From: Clostridiales bacterium
GTDB taxonomy: Bacteria; Bacillota_A; Clostridia; Christensenellales; Borkfalkiaceae
DNA: 38,321 nt
Reading direction: 5' to 3'
NCBI GenBank assembly: GCA_015055785.1
Contig: SVHQ01000003.1
Span: 1-38,321, forward strand
Shown: one piece after another, positions 11,232 through 32,193 of the stretch
Position numbering within the stretch: the stretch's first letter is position 1
Layout of the letters: the number at the start of each line of letters is the position of its first letter
Notes under the pieces: generated by a model
What the model was told of the DNA's origin: nothing
What the model saw: the letters and a program-made list of their open reading frames with translations, nothing else
The model's database searches: none
Translations under genes and position numbers: made by a program

Positions 11232-12971
11232 ATGATGAAAAAGAACAAAAGAACAATAGCATTACTGTTAAGTACGTTGTTGGCATTTAGCACCATTGGA
11301 AGCTTGGCTGCTTGTGGAGGCAATAAAGAGAAGATTGACGAAAAAACGATTGTTGTCAAAACTAGAAAAGCGGGGTTTGGTACGGACTGGCTTTACGAAT
11401 TGAAAGGCAAGTTTGAGGCGGCGTATGCGCAGGAAGGCTATAAGGTGCTGATTAGAACGCCTGATAATGCGATCAAAGGTGATACGCTCGTTAAGGAATT
11501 GGCGCTCGGCTATGATGAAACAAAAGTTGACTTATATATCAGTACTGACGCGAATCCTGACACCGTAGGCGCTTTGGGAAACTATGGCGTTTTGGTGGAA
11601 AACATAGAAGAAAGCGTTTACAATCAACCTGCGATTTCTTACGACGGAACGGAAGAAGCGAGAACGGTTCGCGAAAAGATCAGCGCGGAAACTATTTCGT
11701 ATATGACGGATACGAAGGGCGAGCTGTATGGTTATAGTTGGGCGCAAACTTCTGCCGGCTTGGTTGTGAATACCAGAAAATTGGCTGCTTACGGTTTGGA
11801 TTTGCCGAAAACGACAAACGAAATGTTTGATTGCTTTGATAAGATTTATTGCGGGTACAATGGCATTGAAAACTCGATAGAATCGGGTACGTATCCGATT
11901 ACGTATGTTTCTGGCGGAAGCGGCTACGGTTTGGTTTTCCTGTACGCTTTGATGGCACAGTACGATATTGATGAGTATAACAAGTTTTGGACGTTTATGA
12001 CGACAGATGAAGCGGGCGCGTCCGTAAAACTGTCCGACGCGGCTTGTCAAGAACTCTACGACGATTCTATGCTTCTCGAAATGATGAAAGTTGCTTATAG
12101 AACATTCGACTTAAATATTTCTGCCCCTGGTAGCGCGGCGCAGGGCGTTGACCAAGCACAGGCAAAGGTTATGGGGGACGCAGACGGCGCGGTGTTTATG
12201 TTCAACGGCGACTGGATGCTCAACGAAGTGAAATTAAATTACGAAGAAGATTTGGGGGATATTGACTTTATTAACTTCCCCGTTATGTCTGCGGTCGGTA
12301 CGAAGGTGTTTGGAAAAAATACTGCGTATAACTTCGACGATGCGAAATGCGAAGAGCTTTTGTCCTATATCGTTGGCCTTGTGGACGAAAACAAGAGCAT
12401 TGACGAAATCATTGCGTCGGTAAAAGCAGAAAAGGGTGTTGACATTACGGAAGAGTCGGCAAGAGAAGTGGCAAGAGCAAGAGGCGTCACTTATGCGAGA
12501 GGACCTGAACACGTAGCGTATATAACGAAAGGCTCACCGAAGAAAGACATTGCCAGCTTGTTCCTTAGAATGATGAGTAGCGATGATTTTGGCGAAATGT
12601 TCAGCCGAGTGGCAAATGGCACCAGTCCTTACTGCGCAAAAGTAAATACGACGTCGCCGTATAAGTTTGTACGGAATGCGTCCAAAATTCCCGCGAATCA
12701 ATATTTTTCGTTGGTTTCTCGATTTGGTAGCTTGAAAGGGTACAGAGGGGAGATCAGTATGGGCGGTAATCTTCTGGGATTGTTTACTACGGAAGACCAT
12801 ATTCCCGATTATATTACCGCAGAAAGCACAGCAAGTATGTATACGGAATTGGGTGAGAGAAACGGTTTGACGGAGAGCGTATACACTACGGCAGCAGAGA
12901 AATTTTTAGCAGAAGAAAAATCGAACGTAATCAAGAATTGGGAAGAATATTTATCGGCCGCAGGATTATAA
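11232..12971 (+). CDS. ABC importer solute-binding lipoprotein (carbohydrate type)
   Basis: 579 aa, with a lipoprotein signal ending LAAC (Cys28), so it faces outward on the membrane. It fits the family 1 extracellular solute-binding proteins of the CUT1 sugar importers. Features include an N-terminal alpha/beta lobe with DTLVKELALGYDETKVDLY, the central YGYSWAQTSAGLVVNTRKLA loop region, and the late region FLRMMSSDDFGEMFSR. It is longer than the common 420-450 aa, closer to LplA-like proteins that bind larger oligosaccharides. AGGAGG (11221-11226) precedes two possible starts, ATG 11232 and ATG 11235. Both permeases follow directly, so the three form the importer. Confidence 0.93.
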   Translation: MMKKNKRTIALLLSTLLAFSTIGSLAACGGNKEKIDEKTIVVKTRKAGFGTDWLYELKGKFEAAYAQEGYKVLIRTPDNAIKGDTLVKELALGYDETKVDLYISTDANPDTVGALGNYGVLVENIEESVYNQPAISYDGTEEARTVREKISAETISYMTDTKGELYGYSWAQTSAGLVVNTRKLAAYGLDLPKTTNEMFDCFDKIYCGYNGIENSIESGTYPITYVSGGSGYGLVFLYALMAQYDIDEYNKFWTFMTTDEAGASVKLSDAACQELYDDSMLLEMMKVAYRTFDLNISAPGSAAQGVDQAQAKVMGDADGAVFMFNGDWMLNEVKLNYEEDLGDIDFINFPVMSAVGTKVFGKNTAYNFDDAKCEELLSYIVGLVDENKSIDEIIASVKAEKGVDITEESAREVARARGVTYARGPEHVAYITKGSPKKDIASLFLRMMSSDDFGEMFSRVANGTSPYCAKVNTTSPYKFVRNASKIPANQYFSLVSRFGSLKGYRGEISMGGNLLGLFTTEDHIPDYITAESTASMYTELGERNGLTESVYTTAAEKFLAEEKSNVIKNWEEYLSAAGL

Positions 12972-12977
12972 GGTATT

Positions 12978-13934
12978 ATGAAAATATTTGATAGGGTTAA
13001 GAAAAACTATTCAAAATTGGAAAGACGGGACTTTTTGTTTGCGTATTTGATCGTACTTTTTCCCGTAGCGCAGTTTTTAATTTTTTGGTTTTACGTAAAC
13101 GCGTCGTCTATCGGGCTTGCTTTTCAGGACAGCATGGGGAACTTCACTTGGGCAAATTTCAAAATGGTGTACAACGGCTTCGTGGATGAGGATATGTTGG
13201 GCATCAATCTCGGGGATTCGTTGTTGCGGTCGTTTATCTTATGGATCGTGGGTGAAGGGTTTATATTTCCCATCACGCTGATTACGACCTACGTGTTGAC
13301 GAAAAAGATCGTTGGACACTACGTATTTAGAGTTATCTATTATATTCCTGGTTTGATGGGCGCGATTATTTGGACGTTGCTTATCAAGGAAATGGTTGCT
13401 TATTCAGGACCTATCACTAAAACATTGTTGTCGTTGGGGGTTGATTTACCTTTGGGCGCGCGTAAAAACGGGCTTTTGCGTCACGAAGATACGGCGTTTG
13501 TCACACTTCTGACGGTGCGATCTATTATGGGAATCGTAGGGAATAACGCAGTTTTGACGGGCGCATATACGCGTGTACCCGACGAGCTTTTTGAATCGGC
13601 TGAATTGGATGGCGCAGGGTTCTTTACGCAGATGTTTAAAATTGCAATCCCTTGTATTTGGGCGACTATTTGTACGCTGTTGACGTTTGCATTGTGCAGT
13701 ATTTTTACTTGCGACTATAACGTATGGCTGTTTACGGACGGAACGGGACGATATGGAACGTCGACAATAGGGTTCCAGCTATTCAACTTGACGTATCGAC
13801 TGTCCACAGGTAGCGGTTCGACGGGCTACGGTTATCCCGCCGCGCTCGGTGTGGTTTTGACGGCGATTACTTTACCGGTTGTTTTGGTGGGTAAGCATCT
13901 GTTAGAAAAGATGTCGGAAAACGTGGAGGTTTAG
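12978..13934 (+). CDS. CUT1 sugar ABC transporter permease (MalF/LplB-like)
   Basis: 318 aa with about six membrane helices, starting with FAYLIVLFPVAQFLIFWFYV. The cytoplasmic EAA loop that contacts the ATPase is visible as LFESAELDGAGFFTQMFKIA followed by IPCIW. The gene starts 6 nt after the binding-protein stop and ends 1 nt before the second permease, so translation is probably coupled. No ATP-binding subunit is encoded in this window. As in many Firmicutes sugar importers, a shared MsmX-type ATPase encoded elsewhere is expected (family knowledge). Confidence 0.94.
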   Translation: MKIFDRVKKNYSKLERRDFLFAYLIVLFPVAQFLIFWFYVNASSIGLAFQDSMGNFTWANFKMVYNGFVDEDMLGINLGDSLLRSFILWIVGEGFIFPITLITTYVLTKKIVGHYVFRVIYYIPGLMGAIIWTLLIKEMVAYSGPITKTLLSLGVDLPLGARKNGLLRHEDTAFVTLLTVRSIMGIVGNNAVLTGAYTRVPDELFESAELDGAGFFTQMFKIAIPCIWATICTLLTFALCSIFTCDYNVWLFTDGTGRYGTSTIGFQLFNLTYRLSTGSGSTGYGYPAALGVVLTAITLPVVLVGKHLLEKMSENVEV

Positions 13935-13935
13935 T

Positions 13936-14823
13936 ATGACGAAATTGAAATTCAAAAAGACTCCCGTTAGCGTAAAAATTATCTACATATGCTTTTTCGT
14001 AATTTTCACGTTTTTTGCCGTTTTGTATTTATATCCGCTACTTTGGGCGATATTGAACTCTTTCAAGACAATGAAGGAATATTCCACGGATAGTTTGTCG
14101 TTTCCTGAAAATTGGCTGTTTAGACATTATCTCGAAGTATTTACCGAATTTCAGGCGGTACCTCTTTCAGGCGGCGAGCCGTTTAAATATCTCGATATGC
14201 TTTTAAATTCCTTGTGGATTTTGGTTGTCAACGTATTCGTAAACGTTGTGTCTAGCGCATTGCTTGCGTACGCTTTGGCAAGATTCCGCTTTCCTGGCAG
14301 TAAGTTTTTATACGCAGTGGTTATTTTTGCAAATACCATTCCTATCATTGGCGCTGGCCCTGCGCAGTATAAACTGGCGATGTCGTTGAATATGATCAAC
14401 AATCCTTCTACGATTTGGCTAATGTGGGCTGGGGGGTTCGATTTTGCCTTTATCGTGCTTTACGGTTACTTTAAGGGTGTTAGTCGCTCTTATTCGGAGT
14501 CTGCGAAGATAGATGGTGCAAATAACTGGACGATCTTTATCAAGGTTATTTTGCCGCAGGTGACACCTTGTATCGTTGCAATTGCCATTACGCAAGCGAC
14601 GGGGGTATGGAATAACTATTCGATCTCTATGCTCTATTTGCGTGATTATCCAAATCTTGCTTACGGTATGTATTTGTTTAAAGACAGTAGTTTCTTAGTA
14701 AAGGATTCCATGCCCATCTATTTTGCGGCGGCGGTCATTTCCTGTATCCCCATTATCATTGTGTATACTTGTTCGCAAAACTTAATTTTAAACAATATGA
14801 CAACGGGTGGATTAAAGGGTTGA
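13936..14823 (+). CDS. CUT1 sugar ABC transporter permease (MalG/LplC-like)
   Basis: 295 aa with six probable membrane segments, the first being IIYICFFVIFTFFAVLYLYP. The EAA loop reads SYSESAKIDGANNWTIFIKV followed by ILPQVTPC. The start lies immediately after the first permease stop (TAGT-ATG), with GGAGG at the end of the upstream gene serving as ribosome site. The last cytoplasmic residues (NNMTTGGLKG) match the usual C-terminus of MalG/LplC-type partners. It forms a heterodimer with the preceding permease. Confidence 0.94.
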   Translation: MTKLKFKKTPVSVKIIYICFFVIFTFFAVLYLYPLLWAILNSFKTMKEYSTDSLSFPENWLFRHYLEVFTEFQAVPLSGGEPFKYLDMLLNSLWILVVNVFVNVVSSALLAYALARFRFPGSKFLYAVVIFANTIPIIGAGPAQYKLAMSLNMINNPSTIWLMWAGGFDFAFIVLYGYFKGVSRSYSESAKIDGANNWTIFIKVILPQVTPCIVAIAITQATGVWNNYSISMLYLRDYPNLAYGMYLFKDSSFLVKDSMPIYFAAAVISCIPIIIVYTCSQNLILNNMTTGGLKG

Positions 14824-14863: not shown

Positions 14864-17761
14864 ATGAAAAAACTTTGGATAACATTCTTGATTTGTATGT
14901 CCTTTGTTTGTATAGCTTTTGCGGCGTCGTGCGATAAAGCGAAGCTTACTTTCAACGAAGGGTATTTGGAAGAGGTTGTCTTAGGCGAGCCGATTATGCT
15001 CGACGAATACATCGATCCGTCTTTGACGGATGATTATACGGCGATTTTGACCTGCGACGAAACTGGTCAAGAGCGCGATTTGAAAGAACTTGTACAATGG
15101 ACGACGGATAAACCTGGTACGTATACGTTGACGTATACGGTAAAATCGGGGGAATATAAAGGTACGATCAGCACGAAGATCGAAGTGGTGGTTTCCAAGG
15201 CGACTTGGAAATATTCCACGCCGATGCTCAATTACCGCGCGGGTGATACGATGAGTATGAACGTTTTCAAGCGTCAGTTGAACATCGCCGTGAATTCCTA
15301 TTACGATTATGAGTTTTACGTGGAAAAAGTAGTGTATAACGGCAAGACGGAGCAACTGCGCGGCGAAACCGCTTATACCTTCCCCGAATATGGCGAATTT
15401 ACCTTTACGTTCTGCGTGGAAACGAAGGACGGGCAGTTACTCTCTGCGGAGCATAAGATGAACGTTCGCAAGGAACAAGTTCTTGCGGAGGGCGCAGAAG
15501 ATTGGATGGAGGAAAATAATATTTCCGTAGATGCCGATGGCTATACGTACATATCTCCCGAAGGCTACGTCGAATTAGACGCAGGCTATATCAACGGTTC
15601 GTATTTCAAAGATTACGTTCCCTATCTTGCCTTCAACGGTGAAGACGGCGGTGACGGCTATGGCGCGAATACCTATGTGACGGTGGATTTTACGGGTAAA
15701 AATCTTCCCCAGGTTGCGTTCTTCTGCGATGAAGTAAAGCCTAGCTACTGCGACGGCGGAAAAGGTATACTCTTCTTTAACGGTTTTGCGTACGGCAGAA
15801 CGAACGTAGAGCCGCAAATCAGCCGTATGGTTATTTTTGGGCCGAACAAGGTGAGCTACGGCGAATTGGACAACAAGGGACGTTTTGTAGCGATTGGTTC
15901 TGCTACGGATCCTTGCCCTGCAAGCTGGAACAGCTTGGATGAAAACTGTCAGTACAGATATATCATTGGTATTGAAGACGCGAAGGCGACGTCGATGAAG
16001 GCGCGTATTCTATTGATCAACTTGACGACCAGTGAAAGAGTGTGGGATTTTACGCAAAAACTGAGCGGATATACGGTGACGAAATGTTCTCTGAATCCCT
16101 GTCCGCATACGAATGGCGGTTGTTCAGAACCGCTTAACTTAGATGACAGCTATTATAAGGGAAGTATTGTTTTGTACGGGATGTACGGTCATGACGCGAC
16201 GTTTGATAAGGTATATATGCCTGTAACGGATGTTGCTGATATTTATGATCTTGACCAAGCCGCAGAATTCAAAGAAGACTATAAGAAGAGTTATAATTTG
16301 GGTGATACGGCAAATATAGCGGATTATATCACGATTCCTGCGACGGATTACGAGTTCCGAGTAACTGCTCCCGACGGGTTGCCTGTAGCCATCGACGCTG
16401 ACGGCAACTTTACGTATAGCAAGAGTGGCGCATATAGATTGTACTATGCGCCCAGTGACGTGAATATCCGCCCGAGTTCGATCACCGTAAGGGTTATGTA
16501 CGATCTCGATAATCCTTTTGAAGCGGATTACTTTGAAACGCAAGGGGTGATCAATCCATTTGAAGGCAGTATACTTGCAGTGTCGAACACAAATATGAAT
16601 TTCGTTGCGGAAGGTGAACGGAGCATCAAGTATTATGCGGTAAATGCAACGGATGACTTCAACGTATTTGTTTCCAAGGAGTTTACCGATTTCGTATATC
16701 TTTCCAGATGGGCGCAGGGTATATCCTTTGATGTTTATAGCGAAGATGCGCTTAGCTTCCGCTTGAAAACGCTGACGGATGATCCTAAGAACAATGCTTA
16801 TCTCCGTGAAGACTATACGGGCGAAATTCCAGCGGAAACGTGGACGACAGTGACTTTGTCGCGTGCATTGATGATGAAGAATTTCGAAACGTATAAGTCT
16901 AAGCCCTACTCGATTGCGTTGGCGTTAGAGAAAACGGGTGGGTTTGGTACACAGGATTGCATATACATCGATAATATTCGGCTGATCATAGACGGTGAGG
17001 GCACGGTGGCAAGCGAAGCACAGACGTTTATGACGGTGAACGGAATAACGGGCTACGCTTACGATTCCATCAATGCGGATTTGAGCGTGGCTTTGAAGGC
17101 GGGCTATTATCAAGGCAGACCTGAGTACGACTCAGTGCAAATGAGCGATGACGACGTTCCTTATCTTGCATACAACGGCGACTACGGTGCAGGCAATTAC
17201 GTTGTGGTGGACTTTACGGGTAAGAACGTACCACAGTTCTGTTTCTTTGCAAAAGAAGTGACCTCGTCGCTTTTAGACGGCAAGGCAGGTATATACGTGC
17301 ATACGGGTATATCTAAGGAAAATGGCGATTATAACGACAGCAACGATGCTGGCCGTGTCACCTTCTTTGGAGCGAATAAGATTGAACACGCCCACATTAA
17401 TAACCAAGGGCGTCTTAGGGTATACGGGGTAGGAGTTAATTCTGATCCTAATCCTTCGCCGCTTTCTATCAACGGTTTGGTGGACGGTGTACATTATAGA
17501 TATGTAGCTGGCATCAAGAGTGCGAAAATCGGCGAGCTGGTAATAGAGTTGCTTTTAATCAACTTGGATACGAATACGGAAGTGGTACGTTATGAAACGA
17601 CGCTAAATGGTGCTTGGATTACGGCAGACTATATCAGCGGCAATATCGTAATGTACGGCAGATATAACGTCGCTATTACGCTGGATAAAATCTATGCGGT
17701 ATATGAAAACGTAAGCGATATCTATGCAATCGACAAGGTATCCGAAGTGCTTGGCGCGTAA
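14864..17761 (+). CDS. Large lipoprotein with two copies of an unnamed DFTG module
   Basis: 965 aa. A lipoprotein signal ends AASC (Cys23). Residues ~30-205 look like two beta-sandwich (Ig-like) domains. Residues ~210-465 and ~715-960 are two copies of one module. Each contains VPYLAxNG, an approximately DFTGKNxPQ strand (VTVDFTGKNLPQVAFFCDEV; VVVDFTGKNVPQFCFFAKEV), a FFGxNK-like strand, a (K)xRxxxGI strand, LLINLxT, G(S/N)IVxYG and a closing DIY(D/A). Residues ~550-710 form a jelly-roll-like carbohydrate-binding-type domain ending in IYIDNIRL. No catalytic motif is evident, so a surface glycan-binding or scaffold role is likely (inference). The same module recurs twice in the 2226-aa protein downstream. 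GAGGAG precedes the start. Confidence 0.88.
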   Translation: MKKLWITFLICMSFVCIAFAASCDKAKLTFNEGYLEEVVLGEPIMLDEYIDPSLTDDYTAILTCDETGQERDLKELVQWTTDKPGTYTLTYTVKSGEYKGTISTKIEVVVSKATWKYSTPMLNYRAGDTMSMNVFKRQLNIAVNSYYDYEFYVEKVVYNGKTEQLRGETAYTFPEYGEFTFTFCVETKDGQLLSAEHKMNVRKEQVLAEGAEDWMEENNISVDADGYTYISPEGYVELDAGYINGSYFKDYVPYLAFNGEDGGDGYGANTYVTVDFTGKNLPQVAFFCDEVKPSYCDGGKGILFFNGFAYGRTNVEPQISRMVIFGPNKVSYGELDNKGRFVAIGSATDPCPASWNSLDENCQYRYIIGIEDAKATSMKARILLINLTTSERVWDFTQKLSGYTVTKCSLNPCPHTNGGCSEPLNLDDSYYKGSIVLYGMYGHDATFDKVYMPVTDVADIYDLDQAAEFKEDYKKSYNLGDTANIADYITIPATDYEFRVTAPDGLPVAIDADGNFTYSKSGAYRLYYAPSDVNIRPSSITVRVMYDLDNPFEADYFETQGVINPFEGSILAVSNTNMNFVAEGERSIKYYAVNATDDFNVFVSKEFTDFVYLSRWAQGISFDVYSEDALSFRLKTLTDDPKNNAYLREDYTGEIPAETWTTVTLSRALMMKNFETYKSKPYSIALALEKTGGFGTQDCIYIDNIRLIIDGEGTVASEAQTFMTVNGITGYAYDSINADLSVALKAGYYQGRPEYDSVQMSDDDVPYLAYNGDYGAGNYVVVDFTGKNVPQFCFFAKEVTSSLLDGKAGIYVHTGISKENGDYNDSNDAGRVTFFGANKIEHAHINNQGRLRVYGVGVNSDPNPSPLSINGLVDGVHYRYVAGIKSAKIGELVIELLLINLDTNTEVVRYETTLNGAWITADYISGNIVMYGRYNVAITLDKIYAVYENVSDIYAIDKVSEVLGA

Positions 17762-17775
17762 AAGGAGGAAAAACG

Positions 17776-19332
17776 ATGAAGAAAAAACTTATAGCAATGT
17801 GTTTAGCCGTCGTTTCCGCTTGCAGTTTAGCGTTCGGTGGCTGCGGTGAAATTCCTGACGCTCCCGACTATTCGAATTCTATCCTGCAATATGATTTTTA
17901 CGGCTATTCTGCGTGTATTGACGGTTGGACAATCGACGGCGTAGGATATGACGTAGAGGAGGATTATCTCTCGGTAGAGCGCATTAAAGAATACAAAGAC
18001 GCGGGAATGACCATTTACTTTCCGCAAGCAGGCGCATTGGTGACGGATTCTACCGTACAAGATTTTGAAAATAGCACCGTAAAAAGAGCGTTGGATTATT
18101 CCTTAGAAGCGGGGATTGATAAGGTAATCCTTATGGATACTCGAATTCAAGCGCTTTCTAAGCCGAGCTTTGGGACGGAAAAGCAGGTTAAAGAAAAGGT
18201 TAATAACGGCACGATACTAGATGAAGCGGGGCTGATCGGCGAGGGCAAGCGGTTTAAAACCGAAGCGGATTTGGACGCATATATAGCGGCCTGTATGGAG
18301 CCCTATAAAAATCATGAAGCGTTTTACGGGATTATGCTTGGCGACGAGCCTTATTTCTACCACGCGGAAAACTATGGGCAGGTGTATCGTTCTATCAAGC
18401 GCGTTTGTCCTGAAGCGTATATTCAGTATAATCTGCATCCAATTTCTTCGACAGAGCAAGAAGAAAATCGTAAAATATACTTCACCGGGGTGAAAAACGA
18501 AGAAGGATTGACGCAGAATGAGAAGATGATTCAGGCATATGAGCAATACATACGCTTATTCCTGGACGCAACGGGCGCAGAATATATTCAATACGACCAG
18601 TATCCGTTTAGACGTGCAGATTCAGTGGATTTGTATTACATTCTCGGTTTACAGGTTGTGTCGAAGTTGGCGCAGGAATACGGCGTAGAGTTTTATTTTG
18701 TCACACAAACATACGGGCAGACGGACAATATAACAAATCCCAGAATGCTCACGCAAGAAGATTTGTATTGGCTTAATAATATGCTTGTGGGTTTTGGTAT
18801 CAAGCAGATATCTTACTTCACCTATTTTACTAAGGCGGACAATAACACAGAGCATTTCATTGATGGAAATTCGTTCCTTACTTGGAAAGGCGAAAAGACG
18901 GACATCTATCACTGGATGAAACAAATCATGGCGGAAGAGCAGAGGCTTGCGCCGACAATTTTGAATTTTGACTATCGCAGTAGCAAAATTTTTAGATTGG
19001 AAATGACGAATTTCGACTGTACCTATGCAATGCGTACCATAGAAACGCCGAGCTTCGTGGCATTGAAGAACGTTAACGTCAACAAAGAAGTAGCGTTGGT
19101 GACCGAGCTGTACGATGATGAAAAGCAAAATTATATGTATATGGTGCAGAACGTAATCGACTCTACCAAAAAGGGAAGCAAAGCATATCAGACGACGGTG
19201 CTTACCTTTGACAAGGCGTATAAGTATGCAGTGCTTTACGTAAAGGGCGAAAGAACGCTTGTGAAGTTGGATAAGGGAACGCTTACGCTAAAGCATAAAC
19301 CGGGCGAAGCGACCTACGTAATACCTTATTAA
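17776..19332 (+). CDS. Lipoprotein TIM-barrel-type putative glycosidase (DEP family, unassigned)
   Basis: 518 aa with a lipoprotein signal ending FGGC (Cys23). The layout suggests a (beta/alpha)8 barrel: EAGIDKVILMDT, then YGIMLGDEPYFYH (Asp190-Glu191), AYIQYNLHP, EYIQYDQYPF (Asp274), FYFVTQTYG and ISYFTYFT. The Glu in DEP sits where clan GH-A enzymes carry their acid/base residue. The second catalytic residue is less clear because no Glu ends the next likely strands; Asp274 is a candidate. A C-terminal beta domain (NYMYMVQNVID, YVIPY) resembles the all-beta domains that follow such barrels. Residues 25-518 align along their length with residues ~1708-2226 of the 2226-aa protein. I cannot name a CAZy family. 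Confidence 0.8.
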   Translation: MKKKLIAMCLAVVSACSLAFGGCGEIPDAPDYSNSILQYDFYGYSACIDGWTIDGVGYDVEEDYLSVERIKEYKDAGMTIYFPQAGALVTDSTVQDFENSTVKRALDYSLEAGIDKVILMDTRIQALSKPSFGTEKQVKEKVNNGTILDEAGLIGEGKRFKTEADLDAYIAACMEPYKNHEAFYGIMLGDEPYFYHAENYGQVYRSIKRVCPEAYIQYNLHPISSTEQEENRKIYFTGVKNEEGLTQNEKMIQAYEQYIRLFLDATGAEYIQYDQYPFRRADSVDLYYILGLQVVSKLAQEYGVEFYFVTQTYGQTDNITNPRMLTQEDLYWLNNMLVGFGIKQISYFTYFTKADNNTEHFIDGNSFLTWKGEKTDIYHWMKQIMAEEQRLAPTILNFDYRSSKIFRLEMTNFDCTYAMRTIETPSFVALKNVNVNKEVALVTELYDDEKQNYMYMVQNVIDSTKKGSKAYQTTVLTFDKAYKYAVLYVKGERTLVKLDKGTLTLKHKPGEATYVIPY

Positions 19333-19407
19333 CGGTGGACGTTTCTTTGGCTGGAAAAGGCTTAGAAAATCATAAAAAACAATGAAAATCTTCAAGGGAG
19401 GAAAAAT

Positions 19408-21948
19408 ATGAAGAAAAATCTTAAATTACTCTTAGCGGCTTTGATTTCACTTGGCTTGATGGGGGTTGCATCGGCTTGCGACTTTATTATTCCTGACACT
19501 TCGTCGGATAGCGGTTTGCAATCGGAATCTCCTGCGGTAGAGTATACAGTTACCTTTGTGGCAGACGGCGTAACGGTTGATACGGTCACCTATACGGAAG
19601 GAGCGGAAAGTATTACCGAACCTGCAGTTCCTGCAAAGGAGCATTACACGGGTGCATGGGAAGCTTATACGCTTGATGGCAATGTGACTGTAAACGCAGT
19701 TTACACCTTGATGGAATACACAGTCACCTTTGTAGCGGACGGCAAAACAGTGGCAGTAGAAAACTATACGATTGAAGATACGGAAATTACACAACCTACT
19801 GCGCCTGCGAAGGATCATTATACGGTGGCTTGGGAAGCGTACGAGCTCACTGGCGGCAACGTGACCGTAAATGCAGTGTATACAGCAATCGAATATACTG
19901 TGACTTTCGTTGTGGAAGGTACAACGGTAGGCACGCAAACGTACACGGTCGAAGATGAAACGATTACCGAACCAGCAGTTTCCGCAAAGGATCATTACGC
20001 AGGTGCTTGGGAAACGTATGCTCTTGACGGTGGAAATAAGACAGTTAACGCAGTATATACGCCGATCGAATATAAGATAACGTTCGTTGCGGACGGCACG
20101 ACGGTAAAAGAAGTTTCTTATACGGTGGAAACCGAATCGATCGAAGCACCCGCAGTTCCCGAAAAAACGGGTTATAAAGGTACGTGGGCAGCGTATGAGC
20201 TTGACGGTGGCGACAAGACGGTCAACGCAAGCTATGAGGCCAATACATATCAAATCACTTATGACGCAAAGGGCGGCAGTGTTGAAATCGAAAACCAGGA
20301 AGTCATCTACGGCGAAGCATATACGCTTGCAACGGCGACTGCATCCAAGTTTTATCAAGAGTTCCTCGGTTGGGTTGACGAGAACGGTAATTATGTGGTA
20401 TCGGGTGAAGCGTGGACAATCACTTCTGACGTAACCTTGACGGCAAAATATAGTAACGTTATCACGTTTGATTCGATGACGGAAGTTCCCTCGTATTTCC
20501 AGAACGGCGGCAGAGCGACTCTTTCGATTGTGGATGGAAACGGTGGCAAGGTGTTGCAGGCAACGTCGGAAAACAACGATCAAGGCAACGTACGTATTAT
20601 GATGACGGTTGCTGACCTTGCGCAATTCTTTGAAGATCCTTCCGTGCAGTATATGGCGTTTGACTTAAAGCTTCCCGAAGGCGCGACGACTCCTGTAAGC
20701 AGTATTATGTATCACAATCTTGAGCAGACGAATTATACGTCGTACGAAACGGGTGACCCGAGTAAATCGGGTAGCCAATTTGATACTACGCCTACGGACG
20801 CATTTAAGAGCTATTATTTGCCGAGATCTGTATACGAGGCATGGGTAGCGAACGGCAAAACGGAAGCTCGTATTTTGAACGTGCAAGCTGGCATTACGCA
20901 AGGGGCAAGCTATTGGGTGGATAATTTCCGTCCTGTTACCGAAGTGGACTACACGGCAGATTTATTTAGCTTTGAAACGGGCTCTTTGAGAAAGAATATG
21001 GATGACGGTCCTGGATTCTGTACGCCCAATTACAATCAGTTCCATTTCAAGATTACGGGCGCTGACGCATCGACGGCGAAGTTTACCAACGAAATCGTAT
21101 CTGACGGTATGCGCGCGATACAGTTTACTAAGAAATCGGGTGAAAGTGTCATGATGTTTAACCCGAACTCGGATCCCTCAATGGAAGTTGGGATGCGCGA
21201 AGCTGGCTACGTTTCCTTTGATTTGTACGTACCCGAAGGCTCGGACGCGAAAATCAAGCATCATAATCAAGCGTGGTACGGGGCATTAAAGCAGGGCTGG
21301 AACACCATTTATGAAAAAGTTGACGCAACGAACAATGAGCTTATAAGATTTGTCGATACGACTGCAAGCACGTACGTGATTGATAACTTCCGCCTTTTGA
21401 CAGAAGACGAATACAACGCAGCGAAGTTTGGCTTTGAAGCAGGCGGCGTACTTCGTGATAACAATGCGAACGATGATACGGCGAGTGGTTGGACGTACTA
21501 TTACGCTGGCTGGGATAAGGCAAACAACAAAGCTTCCATCCAGGTGACGGAAGGTGACTCTTTGGCGGTGCTTTCCAACGTACGCTTTGCTACGGAACAG
21601 GTGCACGGAGGCGACTATTCGTTGGCGTTCGATAAGAAAGCGGGCTGGATGGACTTGAAGATGGCGAGTGAATCCGAAATGTATGAGTTGTTGAAGGGCG
21701 GCTTTACGTTCTGGATTTACAGCACGACGGCGCTCAACGGTACGAGCAGTACTCAAATTGCCAATGGTTATGAAGGAAAGCTTCACGGCGGTGAGGGTAT
21801 AGATATTGAAGCGAATACCTGGACGAAAATTACGATAATGCCTGATGATATCAAGAGCGCGAGTCGTTTCTTGACGCTCACTGGAAGTACGGAGGGTACG
21901 ATATATATCGACGATTTTCAGGCGTTGTCTGAAACGGATGCGGAATAA
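19408..21948 (+). CDS. Surface lipoprotein: InlB-type repeats plus ~490-aa duplicated module
   Basis: 846 aa. A lipoprotein signal ends ASAC (Cys24). Residues ~45-278 are four tandem ~59-aa repeats (EYTVTFVADG...AWEAY...TVNAVY), related to the extended bacterial repeats of the MucBP/InlB type. Residues ~279-349 are one InlB B-repeat-like unit (YQITYDAKGGSVE...FLGWVDENG...LTAKY). Residues ~351-840 form a beta-rich region with repeated VDNFRP / IDNFRLL / IDDFQ ends, which looks like three successive carbohydrate-binding-type jelly rolls. This last region is almost identical to residues 340-825 of the 2226-aa protein. There is no clear enzyme motif, so glycan binding and a stalk function are likely. 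AGGGAGGAA precedes the ATG. Confidence 0.88.
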   Translation: MKKNLKLLLAALISLGLMGVASACDFIIPDTSSDSGLQSESPAVEYTVTFVADGVTVDTVTYTEGAESITEPAVPAKEHYTGAWEAYTLDGNVTVNAVYTLMEYTVTFVADGKTVAVENYTIEDTEITQPTAPAKDHYTVAWEAYELTGGNVTVNAVYTAIEYTVTFVVEGTTVGTQTYTVEDETITEPAVSAKDHYAGAWETYALDGGNKTVNAVYTPIEYKITFVADGTTVKEVSYTVETESIEAPAVPEKTGYKGTWAAYELDGGDKTVNASYEANTYQITYDAKGGSVEIENQEVIYGEAYTLATATASKFYQEFLGWVDENGNYVVSGEAWTITSDVTLTAKYSNVITFDSMTEVPSYFQNGGRATLSIVDGNGGKVLQATSENNDQGNVRIMMTVADLAQFFEDPSVQYMAFDLKLPEGATTPVSSIMYHNLEQTNYTSYETGDPSKSGSQFDTTPTDAFKSYYLPRSVYEAWVANGKTEARILNVQAGITQGASYWVDNFRPVTEVDYTADLFSFETGSLRKNMDDGPGFCTPNYNQFHFKITGADASTAKFTNEIVSDGMRAIQFTKKSGESVMMFNPNSDPSMEVGMREAGYVSFDLYVPEGSDAKIKHHNQAWYGALKQGWNTIYEKVDATNNELIRFVDTTASTYVIDNFRLLTEDEYNAAKFGFEAGGVLRDNNANDDTASGWTYYYAGWDKANNKASIQVTEGDSLAVLSNVRFATEQVHGGDYSLAFDKKAGWMDLKMASESEMYELLKGGFTFWIYSTTALNGTSSTQIANGYEGKLHGGEGIDIEANTWTKITIMPDDIKSASRFLTLTGSTEGTIYIDDFQALSETDAE
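19540..20241 (+). repeat. Four tandem ~177-nt coding repeats
   Basis: Repeats start at 19540, 19714, 19891 and 20068, each encoding EY(T/K)(V/I)TFV...W(E/A)(A/T)Y...VNA(V/S)Y. They have diverged at the DNA level but keep near-constant length. Confidence 0.85.
20464..21927 (+). repeat. Long direct repeat, copy A (in the 846-aa protein gene)
   Basis: This 1.46-kb segment is highly similar at the DNA level to 23212-24668. One long exact stretch runs from the codons for TGDPSKSG to RSVYEA (about 20748-20837 against 23500-23589). Confidence 0.9.
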
Positions 21949-21969
21949 TGAATTAAAAAGGGTCGCAAG

Positions 21970-21998
21970 GCAATCGTCGCAAAAAATGCGGCGATTGC
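21970..21998 (+). other. Intercistronic hairpin
   Basis: GCAATCGTCGC pairs with GCGGCGATTGC (one G-U) around AAAAAAT. No T tract follows, so it is more likely an mRNA-stabilising or attenuating hairpin than a full terminator. Confidence 0.7.
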
Positions 21999-22024
21999 TG
22001 ATTGCGGTATAAAGGGAAACGATA

Positions 22025-22171
22025 ATGATTAAAAAACAGGAAAACGAAATAATGGAAAAGAAGCCTTACGTTTCGATTTGGCTGGAAAAGATTAGCTTTG
22101 ATGGGGAAGACATTGTAACGACGTCCGATCCGCAAAAGGATAACGATTTTACGCAGGACGACATATTTTGA
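22025..22171 (+). CDS. 48-aa acidic small protein before the giant protein
   Basis: The frame encodes MIKKQENEIMEKKPYVSIWL, then EKISFDGEDIVTTSD and an acidic end (PQKDNDFTQDDIF). AAGGGAAA precedes the ATG, and a second in-frame Met lies at 22052. The pattern 'xxKPYxxP/S...(F)xxEDxVTTS' recalls short peptides I have seen beside surface-protein genes in gut Clostridia, but I cannot name the family. There is no signal peptide and no Cys. It ends 22 nt before the 2226-aa gene, which suggests translational coupling or a leader role. Confidence 0.55.
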   Translation: MIKKQENEIMEKKPYVSIWLEKISFDGEDIVTTSDPQKDNDFTQDDIF

Positions 22172-22193
22172 TTGAGAAAGGAGTAACGGCAAG

Positions 22194-25100
22194 ATGAAGA
22201 AAAAAACACAAAAAGCGCTACTTTCTGCATTGATCGTTGCATCTGCGGCAACATTGGCGGCGGCAACGGTGCTGTCTGCAAAGATCGCTGTAGCGGAAGT
22301 GGCGGGTACGACGCGTTTTGAAATGGTGGAAGGTGCATCCATTCGTTATAGCGAGCCTTTGGGTTTGCGCTTTATCGCAGAGCTTGGTGAGCAGGAATAT
22401 GCCGATCTTACAACGCCTGAAAACGGCGTGACGAAGAAGATGGGCATGTATATTATGCCTTGGGAGTCTATTTCGGAAAATGACGTAATTACGACGACGG
22501 ATTACGCAAGCATAGAAAAACTTGATTACGTTTTCTATTCTAGCGATGGCTCGGTGGATGAAAAAATCTACGAATATGAAGCTGAAAACGGTGAAACGTA
22601 TTATCGTGCGAACGGCGTTATCTCTAATCTAAAACTGCACAATTATGCCAAAGAGTTCGTAGGTATCGGTTATATTGCGGAAACGGAAAACGGAGTAACG
22701 ACGTATACGTATACGGATATTTGCAAGGAAGGTAACGTGCGTAGCTCGGCGTACATAGCAATTGAGGCGCACGCCGACACGAAATATGCTCAAAGCACGA
22801 ATGCACTTTCGGCATTTGAGAAATATATTGACGGCGCGCAGTTGTATACTACCTGGGGCGTGACGGAAAAAGCAGGTGACAACGGCGTAAAAACCTATCA
22901 ATATAATAGCAAAACGTATAATTCTTTAACCGAAGTCAAAGCTGCAATCACGGATTACGCATATTCGCTGAAGCTTGACAGATCGGTTAAGTACATAAAA
23001 GAGAAAGGTACAGCGCAGCTTAATGCAACGATTAAGGATACGACCCATGACGTTGTTTTTAACGGCGCACACGCGGTGTACAGCTCATCGAACGAGAACG
23101 TTGTTAAGGTAGATAAAACGGGTAAGCTGACGTGGGTAAAAAACGGTACGGCGACGATCACTGCGGAATTTGCAGGGGCTAAAATGACCTGCGAAGTAGT
23201 TTCGGGTGTAATCGACTTCAACGACGGCAAATTGCCTTCGTATATCCAAAACGGCGGTAGAGCGTCGCTTTCGGTTGTAGACGGAAATGGCGGTAAGGTA
23301 TTACAAGCAACATCGGAAAACAACGATCAAGGCAACGTACGTATTATGATGCCGCTTACGCACCTTGGGGCGTTTTTTGAAGATGAAAGCGTAGAATATT
23401 TGGCTTTCGACTTAAAGCTTCCCGAAGGCGCAACGACCCCTGTAAGTAGCATTATGTATCACTCTGTCGATCAGACCAGCTGGACGTCATACGAAACGGG
23501 TGACCCGAGTAAATCGGGTAGCCAATTTGATACTACGCCTACGGACGCATTTAAGAGCTATTATTTGCCGAGATCTGTATACGAAGCATGGGTGGCGAAT
23601 GGAAAGACGGAAGCTCGTATTTTGAACGTGCAAGCAGGCATTACGCAAGGCGCAAGCTATTGGATTGATAATATTCGCGCAGTAACCGCTGATGATTACA
23701 CGGCGGATTTGTATAGCTTTGAAACTGGTTCTTTGAGAAACATGACTACGGCGATTGGATACTGCCAGCCGAATTATAATCAATTCCATTTCCAAATTAC
23801 GTGCGTTGACGCATCGACGGCGAAGTTTACGGGCGAGATCGTATCCGATGGTATGCGTGCAATACAGTTTACTAAGCAAGCGGGCGAAAGTATAATCATG
23901 TTCAACGGAAACTCTGATCCTTCCATGGAAGTTGGGATGCGCGAAGCGGGTTATGTTTCCTTTGATTTGTACGTACCTGAAGGCTCGGATGCGAAAATTA
24001 AGAAAAACGGTCAAGCGTGGTATGGTGCATTAAAGCAGGGCTGGAACACCATTTACGAAAAAGTAGATGCAACGAATAATGAGCTTATAAGATTTGTCGA
24101 TACGACGGCAAGCACGTACGTAATTGATAATTTCCGCCTTTTGACGGAAGCAGAATATAACGAAGCAATGTTTGGTTTCGAAGCAGGTGGCGTACTCCGT
24201 GATAACAACGCTAACGATGCTACGGTTGCCGGCTGGACGTATTACTACGCAGGTGCGGATAAGGCGAATAATGCAGCTTCGATTCAAGTGACGGAAGGTA
24301 GCTCTTTGGCTGTGCTTTCCAACGTGCGTTTTGCTACTGAACAGGTACACGGTGGAGACTATTCGTTAGCGTTCGATAAGAAGTCGGGCTGGATGGACTT
24401 GAAGATGGTTAGCAATTCAACAATGTATGCGTTGTTGAAAGACGGCTTTACGTTCTGGATTTACAGCACGACGGCGCTCAACGGTACGAGTAGTACTCAA
24501 ATTGTCAATGGTTATGAAGGGAAACTCAACGGCGGTACGGGCATAGATGTTGAGGCGAACACTTGGACGAAGATCACGGTAATGGCTGACGATATCAAAG
24601 CGGCTTCTCGTTTCTTGACCTTGACAGGGGGTACGGCAGGTACGATCTATATCGATGATTTCCAACCCATTAAAATGAGCAATATAACCTATGATACAGG
24701 CGATCTCGGTACGGTGGCGCAGGCGACGCAATCGGTTGTGGTCGGCGATGCATATACGCTGGCAACGCCTACGGCATATCGCGATTTCCTTGGTTGGTAC
24801 AACGGTGACGAGCTTGTGCCTACGTCTGGAACTTGGAATATTGACGGCGACGTTACCTTGACGGCGCGCTATGCGGATACGTTGTCCTTTGACGATGGCG
24901 TACTGCCTACGTATATGACCAAGGCAGGATCTACCGAATCTCTTTCCATCGTTGAATTGGACGGCAATAAGGTATTGCAGATCAAGTCGACGGCAACTAC
25001 CAACAATCCTATCATGAACGTTCCTATCGAATTCTTGGCTTCCTTCTTTGAAGGTACGGACGTGGCGCACATCGCGTTTGACGCCAAGACGGGTTTGTCG

Positions 25101-28100
25101 AAAATAGGTAACTTCCGTCGTTCTACAATGAGATCTTCGGGCTGGGGCTATGAGCCGTATGAAAACGATAACGGCTTTAACGGTATCGACACCACCTATA
25201 AGACCTTCTTCTTCACAAGAGCGGACTATGATTATTGGGTAGCAAACAATAAAACAGTGGATGCCTTTATCTTTGCGCAGGGCGTGAATAATGGCGACAG
25301 CATTTACGTGGATAACATTAGACCTGCAACGCAGGAAGAATACGAGCTGATGATGTACAGCTTCGGTAGCGGTGGCGTTCGTCAGTACTCGGATAGGGAA
25401 TTGTTCTTCTATTCGCCGTTGACCACGGTTGCAGATCGAACGTTTGGTATGCTTTTAGACGAAGGTAAGGCATTTACCAACATTGGCTACGTAGAAAATG
25501 GTACGGATGGCAACCGCGCGTTCCAGTTTACGAAAGTAGCAGGCAACGTACAGCTCAACTTCCCTTCGGATAAAAAGGGTTACACCACGATTGTAACCAA
25601 GACGGGCTATTATGCAGTAGATATTTATATCCCTGCAAATTCCGACGCTACGTTTACTTATCATACGACGGAGTGGTCGGGCGTAACGCCTATGAAGGGC
25701 GCATGGACGACCTTCTACGCAAAAGGAAACAACGTTGTACAATGGACGGATACGACGGGCGGTACGTATCTGGTGGACAATATCCGTTCGATTCCCCAAG
25801 AAGAGTATGAAAATGCGTTGCCCGAGCCTGAACCTGTTTACAATTGGCATAATGCGGAGGTCGGCGAAACGGATGAAAACGGCGTAATTAACGGCATTAC
25901 ATTTAATGCAAGCACGCATACGAACACATCTTCGACTATTTTGCCACAACCCACCGATACGGAAGATATGTCCTATTACCATTTCGGCGGCGACTACGGC
26001 TTGGATGATTTCCTTGTGTTCGATTTCACTGGCAACAATATGCCGATTTTGTCCTTCTTCAATACGGAAATTGGCAACACGATATATAACCATGCGGAAA
26101 ACGCAGATGTAAAGGGTTGGATTGTTGCGAACGGGGTAACCAATAGCGACGGTACGCCGCATAGCGGCTGGTCGGGCGCATACGCAAACCGTATTAACTT
26201 AATAGGGCCGTATAAGATTTCTTATAAGTTTGACGATAACGGCTCGGGTACGGCAACGCTTTCGCAAGTGAGAGCGGCGGTTGGTTCGAGCTCTTTGGTT
26301 ACAATGGCGAAGCTGAACGGTTCTACGGACGAATACCGTATGATAGTCGGCTGGGTGGAACATGCTACAAAGACCAACGCTATGAGTTTGCGTGTGGTTG
26401 CATGGAATTTGACGACGGAAGAACTCATTGTTGATTTCACGGAGGGAGAAGTTCCTAAGGCGGATTGGACGGGAGATATCGCTCTGTATGGGCATTTCGG
26501 AAGAACGACGACCGTTGACAAGCTGTATCCCGTCGTAGAGGGCTTGGATAATGCGCTTGCGTTGTATACGCCTACTACGGTAAGATATAATACTACGTGG
26601 GACGGCGATGACCTGATCTTGAACGCAAGCTCGTATGAAGGTACGATTGTTGCGCCTACGTCCGCAGATATGTCCTATATCGCTTTTAACGGCACGTACG
26701 GCATGAACGATTTCGTTGTATTCGATTTCACGGGCGATAATATGCCTTTCGTTTCCTTCTTCAATAATCAGGTGACGAATACGGTATTTAACGCTGCGGT
26801 GGATACGAGTGTAAAAGGCTGGGTAATTGTAAATGGCTTACGGCAAAACGCTACGACGATTTGGGGAAGCGGCACCATCAATGAGAAGCGTTTATTGGCT
26901 GTTGGACCGAATAAGATTAAAGATGTCACTAGTAATGATGGAAATACGCGTGCTTCTTTTGGTACTCTTGAAGCCCCCAATATTCTCAGTATCGGACAAC
27001 TGCAGGAAGTGACCGACACCTATCGCGCGATTATCGGCTGGACGACCAGTGAAAGGTCGGATAAGCAGTATATTCAAATCGGCGTTATCAATATGATAAC
27101 GGGCGAAGTAATATACAAAACGACACAGGATTTTGAAGTATGGACGACGGAATACACCGAAGGCAGTATCGCTTTGCACGGTCAGTTTGGTAAAGAGACG
27201 GTGCTCGATAAGGTCATCGGCGTGGAAGAAAACACTACACTTGACGCGTTGCTTGAAAAATATGCTACGAAGGATAGCGATTATTCGGATGAAGAAGCTG
27301 TCACGCTCGACCGTTACGGCTACGCAAGCCTTTCCAACGGTCAGTGGCAAATTGACGGTGTTAATAAGGTTGAAAATCCTACCGATTGGAGAGACGCTAC
27401 CAATCTCAACAGCGATGGGAAGAACCAGTATCAAGTGTATAAAGAAGCAGGTTTCAATATCGTGCTTGCGCAGGATATGATCAATCCTGACGTAGACGCG
27501 GCAACGTGGGAGGCGGAAGGCAAGAAATATATGGACTATGCGCATGAAGCAGGGTTGAAAGTAATCTTGACCGATTGGCATTTCCAAATTCTTTCCAAGC
27601 CTATCACGATAGCCAGCGGCGGCGTTGTTCAGATATCCCATGAAACGTATAAGCCTTGGATTATTGCAACGGATGCGTCGGCGACGACGGGGCTTGCGAA
27701 GGATTACTTGGATGCATTGGCAGCAGCCGGGCTTACTGCAGATACGACGAGATTTGCAAGCAGGGACGCGTTGGATAACTACGTCAGAGAGCAACTCGCT
27801 ATGTATAAGGATCATTCAGCATTTTACGGCGTAATGCTCGCCGACGAGCCTTCCTATCATAACGCATACTGTTACAGCGAAATCTATAAATCGATTAAGC
27901 GCGTTATGCCCGAATGTTACGTACAGTACAACCTGCTTCCTATGGAATCGGATACTGTCGCGATAGAAAGATATTATACCGGAGTAGCGAACGAGTCGGC
28001 AACCAGCGCGCAGATCGAAGCGGCGTATAAACAATATGTGGAACTCTTCCTCGATGCGATGGGTACGGATTATATCCAGTATGACGATTATCCCTTCAAG

Positions 28101-28874
28101 TCGGCTACGGATGGTATGTGGTTCTGGGAAACGACTACGCCGTATATTGATACTACCTCTTTGCGCAATATCCAGCTTGTAGCGGAGATTGCAAAGGAAC
28201 GCGGTCTTTCCGTGAAGGTGGTAACGCAGTCCAGCTTGATGAGAAAAGGCGGATCTGACGGCGACGTGCTTATCCGTCAGATTACGGAAAACGATGCGCG
28301 TTGGCTCAACAACTATTTGATGGGCTTCGGGGTAAAGCAGATCAATTACTTCACTTATTGGACGAAGTATGCGAATAGCACTACAGGCGAATATTTCGAG
28401 GACGGCGGTTCATTTGTCAACCGTGACGGTACGACGACGGCGGTGTATGACTTCATGAAGACGATTATGGCGAACAATACGGCGTTTGCGCCTACGATTA
28501 GCCATTTTGATTACAATGCAAGTAAGGTGGTCGGCTCGAATAACGGTAGCCAGAACAACGACCATATTACTTGGTCGAGCAGTTTGACGGCGGATACTTC
28601 GTTCCGTTTGCTTACAAGCGTAACGACAAATCTTGAATACACGCTTGTAACGGAGTTGTACGATAAAGAAAACTATAACTATATGTATATGGTTATGAAC
28701 ACCATTGATCCGAATGAAGGCGGTACGCAATCTGTTACGGTAACCTTTGCCGATACGATTGATACGATCTACGTATATGATCAGACTGGTACAAGAACGG
28801 CTGTAACGCTTACGAACAACACGTATACCGTGACGCTTACGGCAGGTCAAGCGGTTTATCTGTTGCCGTACTAA
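22194..28874 (+). CDS. Giant secreted modular protein with C-terminal putative glycosidase (2226 aa)
   Basis: A non-lipoprotein signal peptide (residues ~1-35) is followed by these domains: ~45-215, an N-terminal domain with IRYSEPLGLRFIAEL and MGMYIMPWE, common in large clostridial surface proteins; ~262-337, a Big_2-like Ig domain (WVKNGTATITAEF); ~340-825, the ~490-aa module shared with the gene upstream; ~826-897, an InlB-type repeat; ~898-1210, a diverged partial copy of the shared module; ~1213-1456 and ~1463-1682, two DFTG modules (FDFTGNNMPILSFF, FDFTGDNMPFVSFF); ~1708-2226, a TIM-barrel-type enzyme with GVMLADEPSYH (Glu1885) and YIQYDDYPF (Asp1964). No LPXTG, SLH or dockerin is seen, so it may be released or held by partners. 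GAAAGGAG precedes the ATG. Confidence 0.9.
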   Translation: MKKKTQKALLSALIVASAATLAAATVLSAKIAVAEVAGTTRFEMVEGASIRYSEPLGLRFIAELGEQEYADLTTPENGVTKKMGMYIMPWESISENDVITTTDYASIEKLDYVFYSSDGSVDEKIYEYEAENGETYYRANGVISNLKLHNYAKEFVGIGYIAETENGVTTYTYTDICKEGNVRSSAYIAIEAHADTKYAQSTNALSAFEKYIDGAQLYTTWGVTEKAGDNGVKTYQYNSKTYNSLTEVKAAITDYAYSLKLDRSVKYIKEKGTAQLNATIKDTTHDVVFNGAHAVYSSSNENVVKVDKTGKLTWVKNGTATITAEFAGAKMTCEVVSGVIDFNDGKLPSYIQNGGRASLSVVDGNGGKVLQATSENNDQGNVRIMMPLTHLGAFFEDESVEYLAFDLKLPEGATTPVSSIMYHSVDQTSWTSYETGDPSKSGSQFDTTPTDAFKSYYLPRSVYEAWVANGKTEARILNVQAGITQGASYWIDNIRAVTADDYTADLYSFETGSLRNMTTAIGYCQPNYNQFHFQITCVDASTAKFTGEIVSDGMRAIQFTKQAGESIIMFNGNSDPSMEVGMREAGYVSFDLYVPEGSDAKIKKNGQAWYGALKQGWNTIYEKVDATNNELIRFVDTTASTYVIDNFRLLTEAEYNEAMFGFEAGGVLRDNNANDATVAGWTYYYAGADKANNAASIQVTEGSSLAVLSNVRFATEQVHGGDYSLAFDKKSGWMDLKMVSNSTMYALLKDGFTFWIYSTTALNGTSSTQIVNGYEGKLNGGTGIDVEANTWTKITVMADDIKAASRFLTLTGGTAGTIYIDDFQPIKMSNITYDTGDLGTVAQATQSVVVGDAYTLATPTAYRDFLGWYNGDELVPTSGTWNIDGDVTLTARYADTLSFDDGVLPTYMTKAGSTESLSIVELDGNKVLQIKSTATTNNPIMNVPIEFLASFFEGTDVAHIAFDAKTGLSKIGNFRRSTMRSSGWGYEPYENDNGFNGIDTTYKTFFFTRADYDYWVANNKTVDAFIFAQGVNNGDSIYVDNIRPATQEEYELMMYSFGSGGVRQYSDRELFFYSPLTTVADRTFGMLLDEGKAFTNIGYVENGTDGNRAFQFTKVAGNVQLNFPSDKKGYTTIVTKTGYYAVDIYIPANSDATFTYHTTEWSGVTPMKGAWTTFYAKGNNVVQWTDTTGGTYLVDNIRSIPQEEYENALPEPEPVYNWHNAEVGETDENGVINGITFNASTHTNTSSTILPQPTDTEDMSYYHFGGDYGLDDFLVFDFTGNNMPILSFFNTEIGNTIYNHAENADVKGWIVANGVTNSDGTPHSGWSGAYANRINLIGPYKISYKFDDNGSGTATLSQVRAAVGSSSLVTMAKLNGSTDEYRMIVGWVEHATKTNAMSLRVVAWNLTTEELIVDFTEGEVPKADWTGDIALYGHFGRTTTVDKLYPVVEGLDNALALYTPTTVRYNTTWDGDDLILNASSYEGTIVAPTSADMSYIAFNGTYGMNDFVVFDFTGDNMPFVSFFNNQVTNTVFNAAVDTSVKGWVIVNGLRQNATTIWGSGTINEKRLLAVGPNKIKDVTSNDGNTRASFGTLEAPNILSIGQLQEVTDTYRAIIGWTTSERSDKQYIQIGVINMITGEVIYKTTQDFEVWTTEYTEGSIALHGQFGKETVLDKVIGVEENTTLDALLEKYATKDSDYSDEEAVTLDRYGYASLSNGQWQIDGVNKVENPTDWRDATNLNSDGKNQYQVYKEAGFNIVLAQDMINPDVDAATWEAEGKKYMDYAHEAGLKVILTDWHFQILSKPITIASGGVVQISHETYKPWIIATDASATTGLAKDYLDALAAAGLTADTTRFASRDALDNYVREQLAMYKDHSAFYGVMLADEPSYHNAYCYSEIYKSIKRVMPECYVQYNLLPMESDTVAIERYYTGVANESATSAQIEAAYKQYVELFLDAMGTDYIQYDDYPFKSATDGMWFWETTTPYIDTTSLRNIQLVAEIAKERGLSVKVVTQSSLMRKGGSDGDVLIRQITENDARWLNNYLMGFGVKQINYFTYWTKYANSTTGEYFEDGGSFVNRDGTTTAVYDFMKTIMANNTAFAPTISHFDYNASKVVGSNNGSQNNDHITWSSSLTADTSFRLLTSVTTNLEYTLVTELYDKENYNYMYMVMNTIDPNEGGTQSVTVTFADTIDTIYVYDQTGTRTAVTLTNNTYTVTLTAGQAVYLLPY
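23212..24668 (+). repeat. Long direct repeat, copy B (in the 2226-aa protein gene)
   Basis: Partner of 20464-21927, with the same orientation and reading frame. The copies differ mainly at third positions and in a few short insertions. The 2.7-kb spacing makes recombination between them possible. Confidence 0.9.
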
Positions 28875-32077: not shown

Positions 32078-32193
32078 AAGTGCTAATTTAATGTCGTTTA
32101 TGCGCCAACTAAGCAATTTTGAAGATATGATGCACGGATGACGAATATAGATTAGAGCCGAAAAGCAGTAGGTTGGAAATAGGAGAAGAAGAC

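Follow-up and report, generated by a model that had tools for sequence, protein, structure and literature searches.

A recurrent exported module with a predicted concanavalin-A-like fold, probably glycan-binding, in a putative plant-glycan locus of a Clostridiales bacterium

Why do two neighbouring exported proteins of a Clostridiales bacterium carry four copies of a module that matches no named domain? Both are encoded in a 38,321-nucleotide stretch (contig SVHQ01000003.1 of assembly GCA_015055785.1), called the window here; the module is named DFTG after one of its motifs. We consider it fairly likely that DFTG is a new family of probably non-catalytic, concanavalin A (ConA)-like glycan-binding domains in the capture and trimming layer of a plant-glycan locus. 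Directly supported are the homology of the copies, a confidently predicted fold, tight linkage to a barrel and an importer, and four separate slots. The features on which the argument turns are the following.

14864..17761, plus strand: P0001, a 965-residue exported lipoprotein with two DFTG modules (open reading frame; Cys 23)
15482..16273, plus strand: DFTG module 1 (S1), P0001 residues 207-470, by profile match and blastp to the other copies
17006..17755, plus strand: DFTG module 2 (S2), P0001 residues 715-964, by profile match; residues 718-965 modelled with AlphaFold2
17776..19332, plus strand: P0004, 518 residues, a GH-A-type TIM barrel with a C-terminal beta domain and no Pfam family
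22194..28874, plus strand: P0002, a 2226-residue exported protein with a weak Big_2-like region, modules of the P0003 type, two DFTG modules and a C-terminal barrel
25851..26555, plus strand: DFTG module 3 (S3), P0002 residues about 1220-1454, by profile match
26547..27257, plus strand: DFTG module 4 (S4), P0002 residues about 1452-1688, by profile match
27261..28871, plus strand: barrel domain of P0002, residues 1690-2226, homologous to P0004

The preliminary description had claimed four such segments in two neighbouring exported proteins, and both profile and blastp find them there. Within P0001, S1 and S2 are 35% identical (pairwise blastp, E 6e-45), and within P0002, S3 and S4 are 36% identical (E 3e-39). 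The four pairings between the two proteins give 26-30% identity (E 4e-18 to 2e-15), and all four segments can be aligned end to end. A four-copy profile was run against P0001, P0002 and 10 further translated proteins of the window. The profile had no match at E<1 among these 10, exported ones and P0003 included, so the similarity is not compositional. Given the full-length alignment, the blastp E-values and the specificity of the profile, the four-module repeat is real and well above chance.

A search with module 2 returned 95 proteins, and a search with the module pair of P0002 returned 71 lines, or 69 new proteins, with the best 7992 candidates scored. Together with the window these gave 344 near-complete copies, of which 113 remained after removing those at least 70% identical. 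Most of the motif residues named at the outset fall in columns conserved in at least 75% of the 113 copies: the Y and G of Y-A-x-N-G, DFTG-x-N-x-P, FF, the G-P and K of GPNK, and also YR, NL, G-x-I and YG, and DK. These columns include Y50, D66, N71, R114, K122, R133, Y161, R162, D224 and K225 (model numbering). No Glu column and only two Asp columns reach this level. The four segments are thus one domain family, with common motifs distributed across one whole beta-sandwich. With its conserved basic residues the module might favour an acidic glycan, a guess that also takes these residues to lie on the surface.

The preliminary description knew no named domain with this pattern, and the databases agree. 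Whole P0001 and P0002 gave only weak matches in Pfam and NCBIfam, none of which reached a curated cut-off or fell within the segments. Fifteen representative copies, searched one by one, gave single weak matches in Pfam (best E 0.03; none to lectin families or PF09224) and in NCBIfam (best E 0.008, to a translation-factor model), none common to several copies; neither database credibly covers any of the fifteen, and no Pfam model takes in all four segments. Among PDB sequences, the four-copy profile had one match at E 0.89 and a 15-copy profile had none at E<=10. A literature search of titles and abstract starts, with most subscription journals outside its scope, found no paper on a DFTG domain or motif. 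Homology to L-type lectins, LamG3, DUF1080, GH16 and YesU was also considered and rejected, with hhalign probabilities of 0.09-0.13 (0.09 for five PF18483 members, 0.12 for two PF09224 (DUF1961/YesU) members) against 0.21 for a barrel negative control. The test is a weak one, scoring 1.7 for lectin against LamG3 and 0.07 for lectin against GH16 despite their common fold; its positive cases were lectin against DUF1080 (36) and LamG3 against DUF1080 (92). As judged from sequence comparison, DFTG is new as a family relative to Pfam and NCBIfam, and its predicted ConA-like fold is old.

The AlphaFold2 model of module 2 (predicted local distance difference test score 95.7) is a discrete ConA-like jelly roll whose best Foldseek matches are lectins, so the lack of a common fold that might have undone the proposal did not materialise: the prediction gives one confident lectin-type fold. 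YesU and CBM66 are also among the matches. The only chains numbered as carbohydrate-binding modules (CBMs) among the matches listed belong to CBM66 and CBM40, which is no evidence against other CBM families. Since a beta-glucanase (GH16-type), ulvan lyase and PL14 structures are likewise matched, DFTG might be a catalytic ConA-like domain, either a glycoside hydrolase (GH) or a polysaccharide lyase. We regard this as very improbable. The GH16-type catalytic centre is ExDxxE, and it is missing from DFTG because no Glu and only two Asp are conserved; it would also be unusual for several catalytic copies to precede another barrel. To judge from its conserved columns, the DFTG module is probably non-catalytic.

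Nor is it a plain L-type lectin. Five bacterial PF18483 lectins that we fetched carry ADG in three cases and EFDT in four, with EFDN in the fifth. The corresponding DFTG stretches, matched by topology, are N-x-P-x-x-x-FF and G-[IW]-x-x-x-x-G, and they contain no conserved acidic residue after the DFTG Asp that could stand for the ligand and metal acids of the ADG/EFDT type.

The layout of relatives is regular. Two copies were present in 82 of the 95 proteins from the module 2 search, three in 10 and one in 3; in the aligned P0001 relatives, the Cys at position 23 is conserved in 67 of 82 rows. The P0002 search gave copy-copy-barrel in 59 of 69 proteins, four copies plus barrel in 3, five copies plus barrel in 1, and other layouts or none in 6, such that a barrel, putatively an active enzyme, lies C-terminal to the modules in 63/69. 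Relatives of P0004, sought among proteins of similar length, consist of the barrel only (120/120 listed of 300). In one group of relatives, DFTG copies also occur in the protein that takes the place of P0003.

A FastTree phylogeny was built from 276 copies, restricted to proteins in which exactly two copies are near-complete; this set 68 others aside. The P0001-type and P0002-type copies separate with support 1.0. Copies 1 and 2 of the P0001 type (77 each) form one clade each (0.87 and 1.0), and those of the P0002 type (61 each) are each one row short of a clade (0.89 and 0.99). In the broader 113-copy set, which includes multi-copy relatives, the P0001-type slots are not clades. Within the main group, the module duplications appear to predate the spread of these species, with copies that seem not to have been homogenised.

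In one relative, the large DFTG-barrel reading frame (L055; G005:C59:32286-33764) contains a single in-frame TAG, and matches in G153 and G001 likewise have one stop within the matched stretch. A divergent protein of 1454 residues, which combines a barrel with three DFTG-like modules, is encoded in L061 (770-9690); genes for an FGGY sugar kinase and L-rhamnose isomerase are nearby. In L060 (5964-7787), a 607-residue protein that has one DFTG module, at its C-terminus, and lacks any Pfam match at E 0.001 adjoins a DFTG lipoprotein and barrels.

A pattern scan of GTDB species genomes found seventeen DFTG loci, all in Clostridia or Clostridiales metagenome-assembled genomes. In 16 of the 17 locus titles the sample is from the hindgut of goat, roe deer, sheep or water deer, and L011 (SIG403) carries no sample name. 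Each of the twelve genomes behind these loci has 4 to 12 DFTG matches at E 1e-5, a count that takes in weak and incomplete ones. With the threshold at E 1e-6, the profile hit 3 of 396 genomes in an order sample (G002, G036 and G419, the first two also in the family sample) and 1 of 398 in a phylum sample that overlaps it (G002). Carriage by viruses was considered as well; a pattern scan of viral contigs returned no relative.

The barrel is the module's constant partner. P0004, whose N-terminus looks lipoprotein-like by eye, is 38% identical to the P0002 barrel (blastp), and no Pfam model was found for either. Throughout the family, strand 4 has an invariant Asp-Glu and strand 7 ends in an invariant Gln; in P0004 the Glu is E191 and the Gln is Q311, the latter invariant in 53/53 rows. 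GH-A enzymes have their nucleophile Glu at the end of strand 7. The catalytic Glu pair of strands 4 and 7 is therefore not kept in P0004, with Gln in the strand-7 place.

Around these genes, the window encodes the following.

8561..9472, minus strand: AraC-type regulator
9748..11133, plus strand: GH28-family protein
11232..12971, plus strand: solute-binding-protein-like lipoprotein of an ATP-binding cassette (ABC) importer, no credible Pfam match
12978..13934, plus strand: ABC importer permease 1, weak BPD_transp_1 match under its cut-off
13936..14823, plus strand: ABC importer permease 2, BPD_transp_1
19408..21948, plus strand: P0003, 846 residues, List_Bact_rpt repeats and unnamed modules common to P0002
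29009..30439, plus strand: short GH78-like six-hairpin protein
30464..32077, plus strand: GH20 (GH20C-type) protein
32173..33273, plus strand: GDSL/SGNH hydrolase

The lipoprotein at 11232..12971 is called solute-binding-like because it precedes the permease genes. No signal peptide was seen by eye in the GH28, GH78-like and GH20 proteins. P0003 residues 336-840 match P0002 residues 314-826 at 82% identity, against 26-38% in the other common parts, which suggests a recent duplication or gene conversion of this further unnamed stretch. Also in the window are an RsgI_M anti-sigma-factor-like protein upstream of the locus (3102-4331) and an NlpC/P60 protein with SH3 domains, of the cell-wall hydrolase type (35141-36058). 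A Gram-positive polysaccharide utilisation locus (gpPUL) combines a polysaccharide-degrading enzyme, a carbohydrate transport system and a regulator, as put in an extract of PMC5320581; the window cluster has degradative enzymes, an ABC importer and an AraC regulator.

Neighbouring genes hint at the substrate. At no fewer than nine places, a GH78 gene is some 10 kb or less from DFTG genes (G001:C13, G001:C32, G005:C59, G009:C37, G011:C26, G012:C157, G031:C22, G042:C78 and G096:C7); several of these places are orthologous and so not independent. At G009:C37 only the N-terminal part is present, at a contig end. GH36 genes occur near the DFTG loci of G002, G010, G031, G042 and G157, and GH28-like proteins near those of G008, G042 and G157. 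Per genome and uncorrected for kinship, GH78 is present in 19/22 DFTG genomes and 103/179 others (p 0.006), and RhaA in 17/22 and 100/179 (p 0.04). Because these enrichments are modest and kinship is uncorrected, the rhamnose reading is tentative; our best guess for the target is a pectic glycan with rhamnose and galactose. The modules could instead bind a host mucin-type or bacterial glycan, an idea that overlaps with ours and differs in the ligand only. It draws on the GH20 gene of the window cluster, on Gfo/Idh/MocA genes near four relatives' DFTG loci (a fold common to GH109) and on YesU, which binds fucosylated host-type glycans. With GH28, GH78 and GH36 genes recurrent near the loci and GH78 distributed as above, we hold it to be somewhat unlikely.

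Several points weigh against glycan binding or its proposed ligand. Query-normalised TM-scores of the structural matches are 0.46 or lower, the sugar and metal motifs of lectins are absent, and ConA-like folds are also known in domains that bind protein only. Profile-profile comparison gave no link to any of the five families tried, in a test that also misses some same-fold families. GH78 was identified near only some loci, and among the genes scanned and the matches listed there was none near the loci of G008, G010, G133 and G157. The modules might thus be structural or protein-binding sandwiches of the LamG or thrombospondin type, acting as a barrel spacer or joining the lipoprotein to the long protein, with no sugar bound. 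This we think unlikely: the best structural matches are lectins, with YesU and CBM66 among the matches; in the 15 stretches read, the modules adjoin the barrel in all and the importer in most; and the four slots have remained separate, for which a plain spacer would have no need. A carbohydrate-binding module, guessed at in the preliminary description, is favoured because tandem copies are fused to a glycosidase-like barrel beside ABC importer and glycosidase genes, and the lectin-type predicted fold lends it further support.

DFTG modules, then, probably help the cell to grip complex plant sugars ahead of uptake. Two would sit on the membrane lipoprotein and two ahead of the glycosidase-like barrel on the long secreted protein, and the DFTG and barrel proteins together would make up the part of a gpPUL that captures and trims glycans outside the cell. 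Oligosaccharides would pass to the solute-binding protein, enter through the ABC permeases and be broken down in the cytoplasm by the GH28, GH78-type and GH20 enzymes, and in relatives also by GH36. The target would likely be a complex heteroglycan of plants that contains galacturonate, rhamnose and alpha-galactose, for example the side chains of rhamnogalacturonan. Here we infer that the modules bind sugar, which ligand they bind, in what order the steps follow and that the enzymes are cytoplasmic.

A bolder proposal, speculative and rather doubtful as a whole, is that DFTG modules and unnamed barrels make up a new kind of apparatus for glycan capture in Gram-positive bacteria, equivalent in function to SusD and surface glycan-binding proteins. 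Each of four lectin-fold modules, in its fixed and non-interchangeable slot, would recognise a different part of a single complex glycan that contains rhamnose, and this glycan would be offered to a barrel lacking the usual GH-A Glu pair (strand 4 has Asp-Glu, strand 6 Asp and strand 7 Gln). The barrel would either have an unusual mechanism or only bind.

The analysis provides a testable fold and role for a module found 4 to 12 times in each of twelve genomes of uncultured hindgut Clostridia, and uncovers its partner barrel family. If DFTG binds rhamnose-rich pectin fragments, the modules would have value as reagents and would shed light on how these small-genome bacteria compete for such fragments.

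Compared with known systems, DFTG has in common with L-type lectins (ERGIC-53/LMAN1, VIP36 and legume lectins; PF18483, PF00139) a ConA-like fold, predicted for DFTG, but identity is about 10%, with no Pfam or profile-profile match. YesU of Bacillus subtilis (PDB 1oq1), which we take to be DUF1961, is 9% identical to the module without a profile match, and is a single-domain protein, whereas DFTG forms tandem modules on exported proteins; PF09224 matches were found in B. subtilis. CBM66 is a sandwich module joined to a glycosidase, as DFTG is to its glycosidase-like barrel (Foldseek E 2e-3), yet it is smaller (161-163 residues), with query-normalised TM-scores of 0.36-0.39 and no sequence match; this ConA-like CBM occurs on GH32 enzymes (PMC5320581, in extract). 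The partner barrel differs from GH42 beta-galactosidases in having no Pfam match and an invariant Gln (53/53) in place of the nucleophile Glu. The window locus resembles the Roseburia/E. rectale gpPULs, as far as the extract of PMC5320581 describes them, in gathering enzymes, an ABC importer and an AraC regulator into one cluster, and differs from them in building its extracellular layer from two non-Pfam families, the DFTG module and a GH-A-like barrel.
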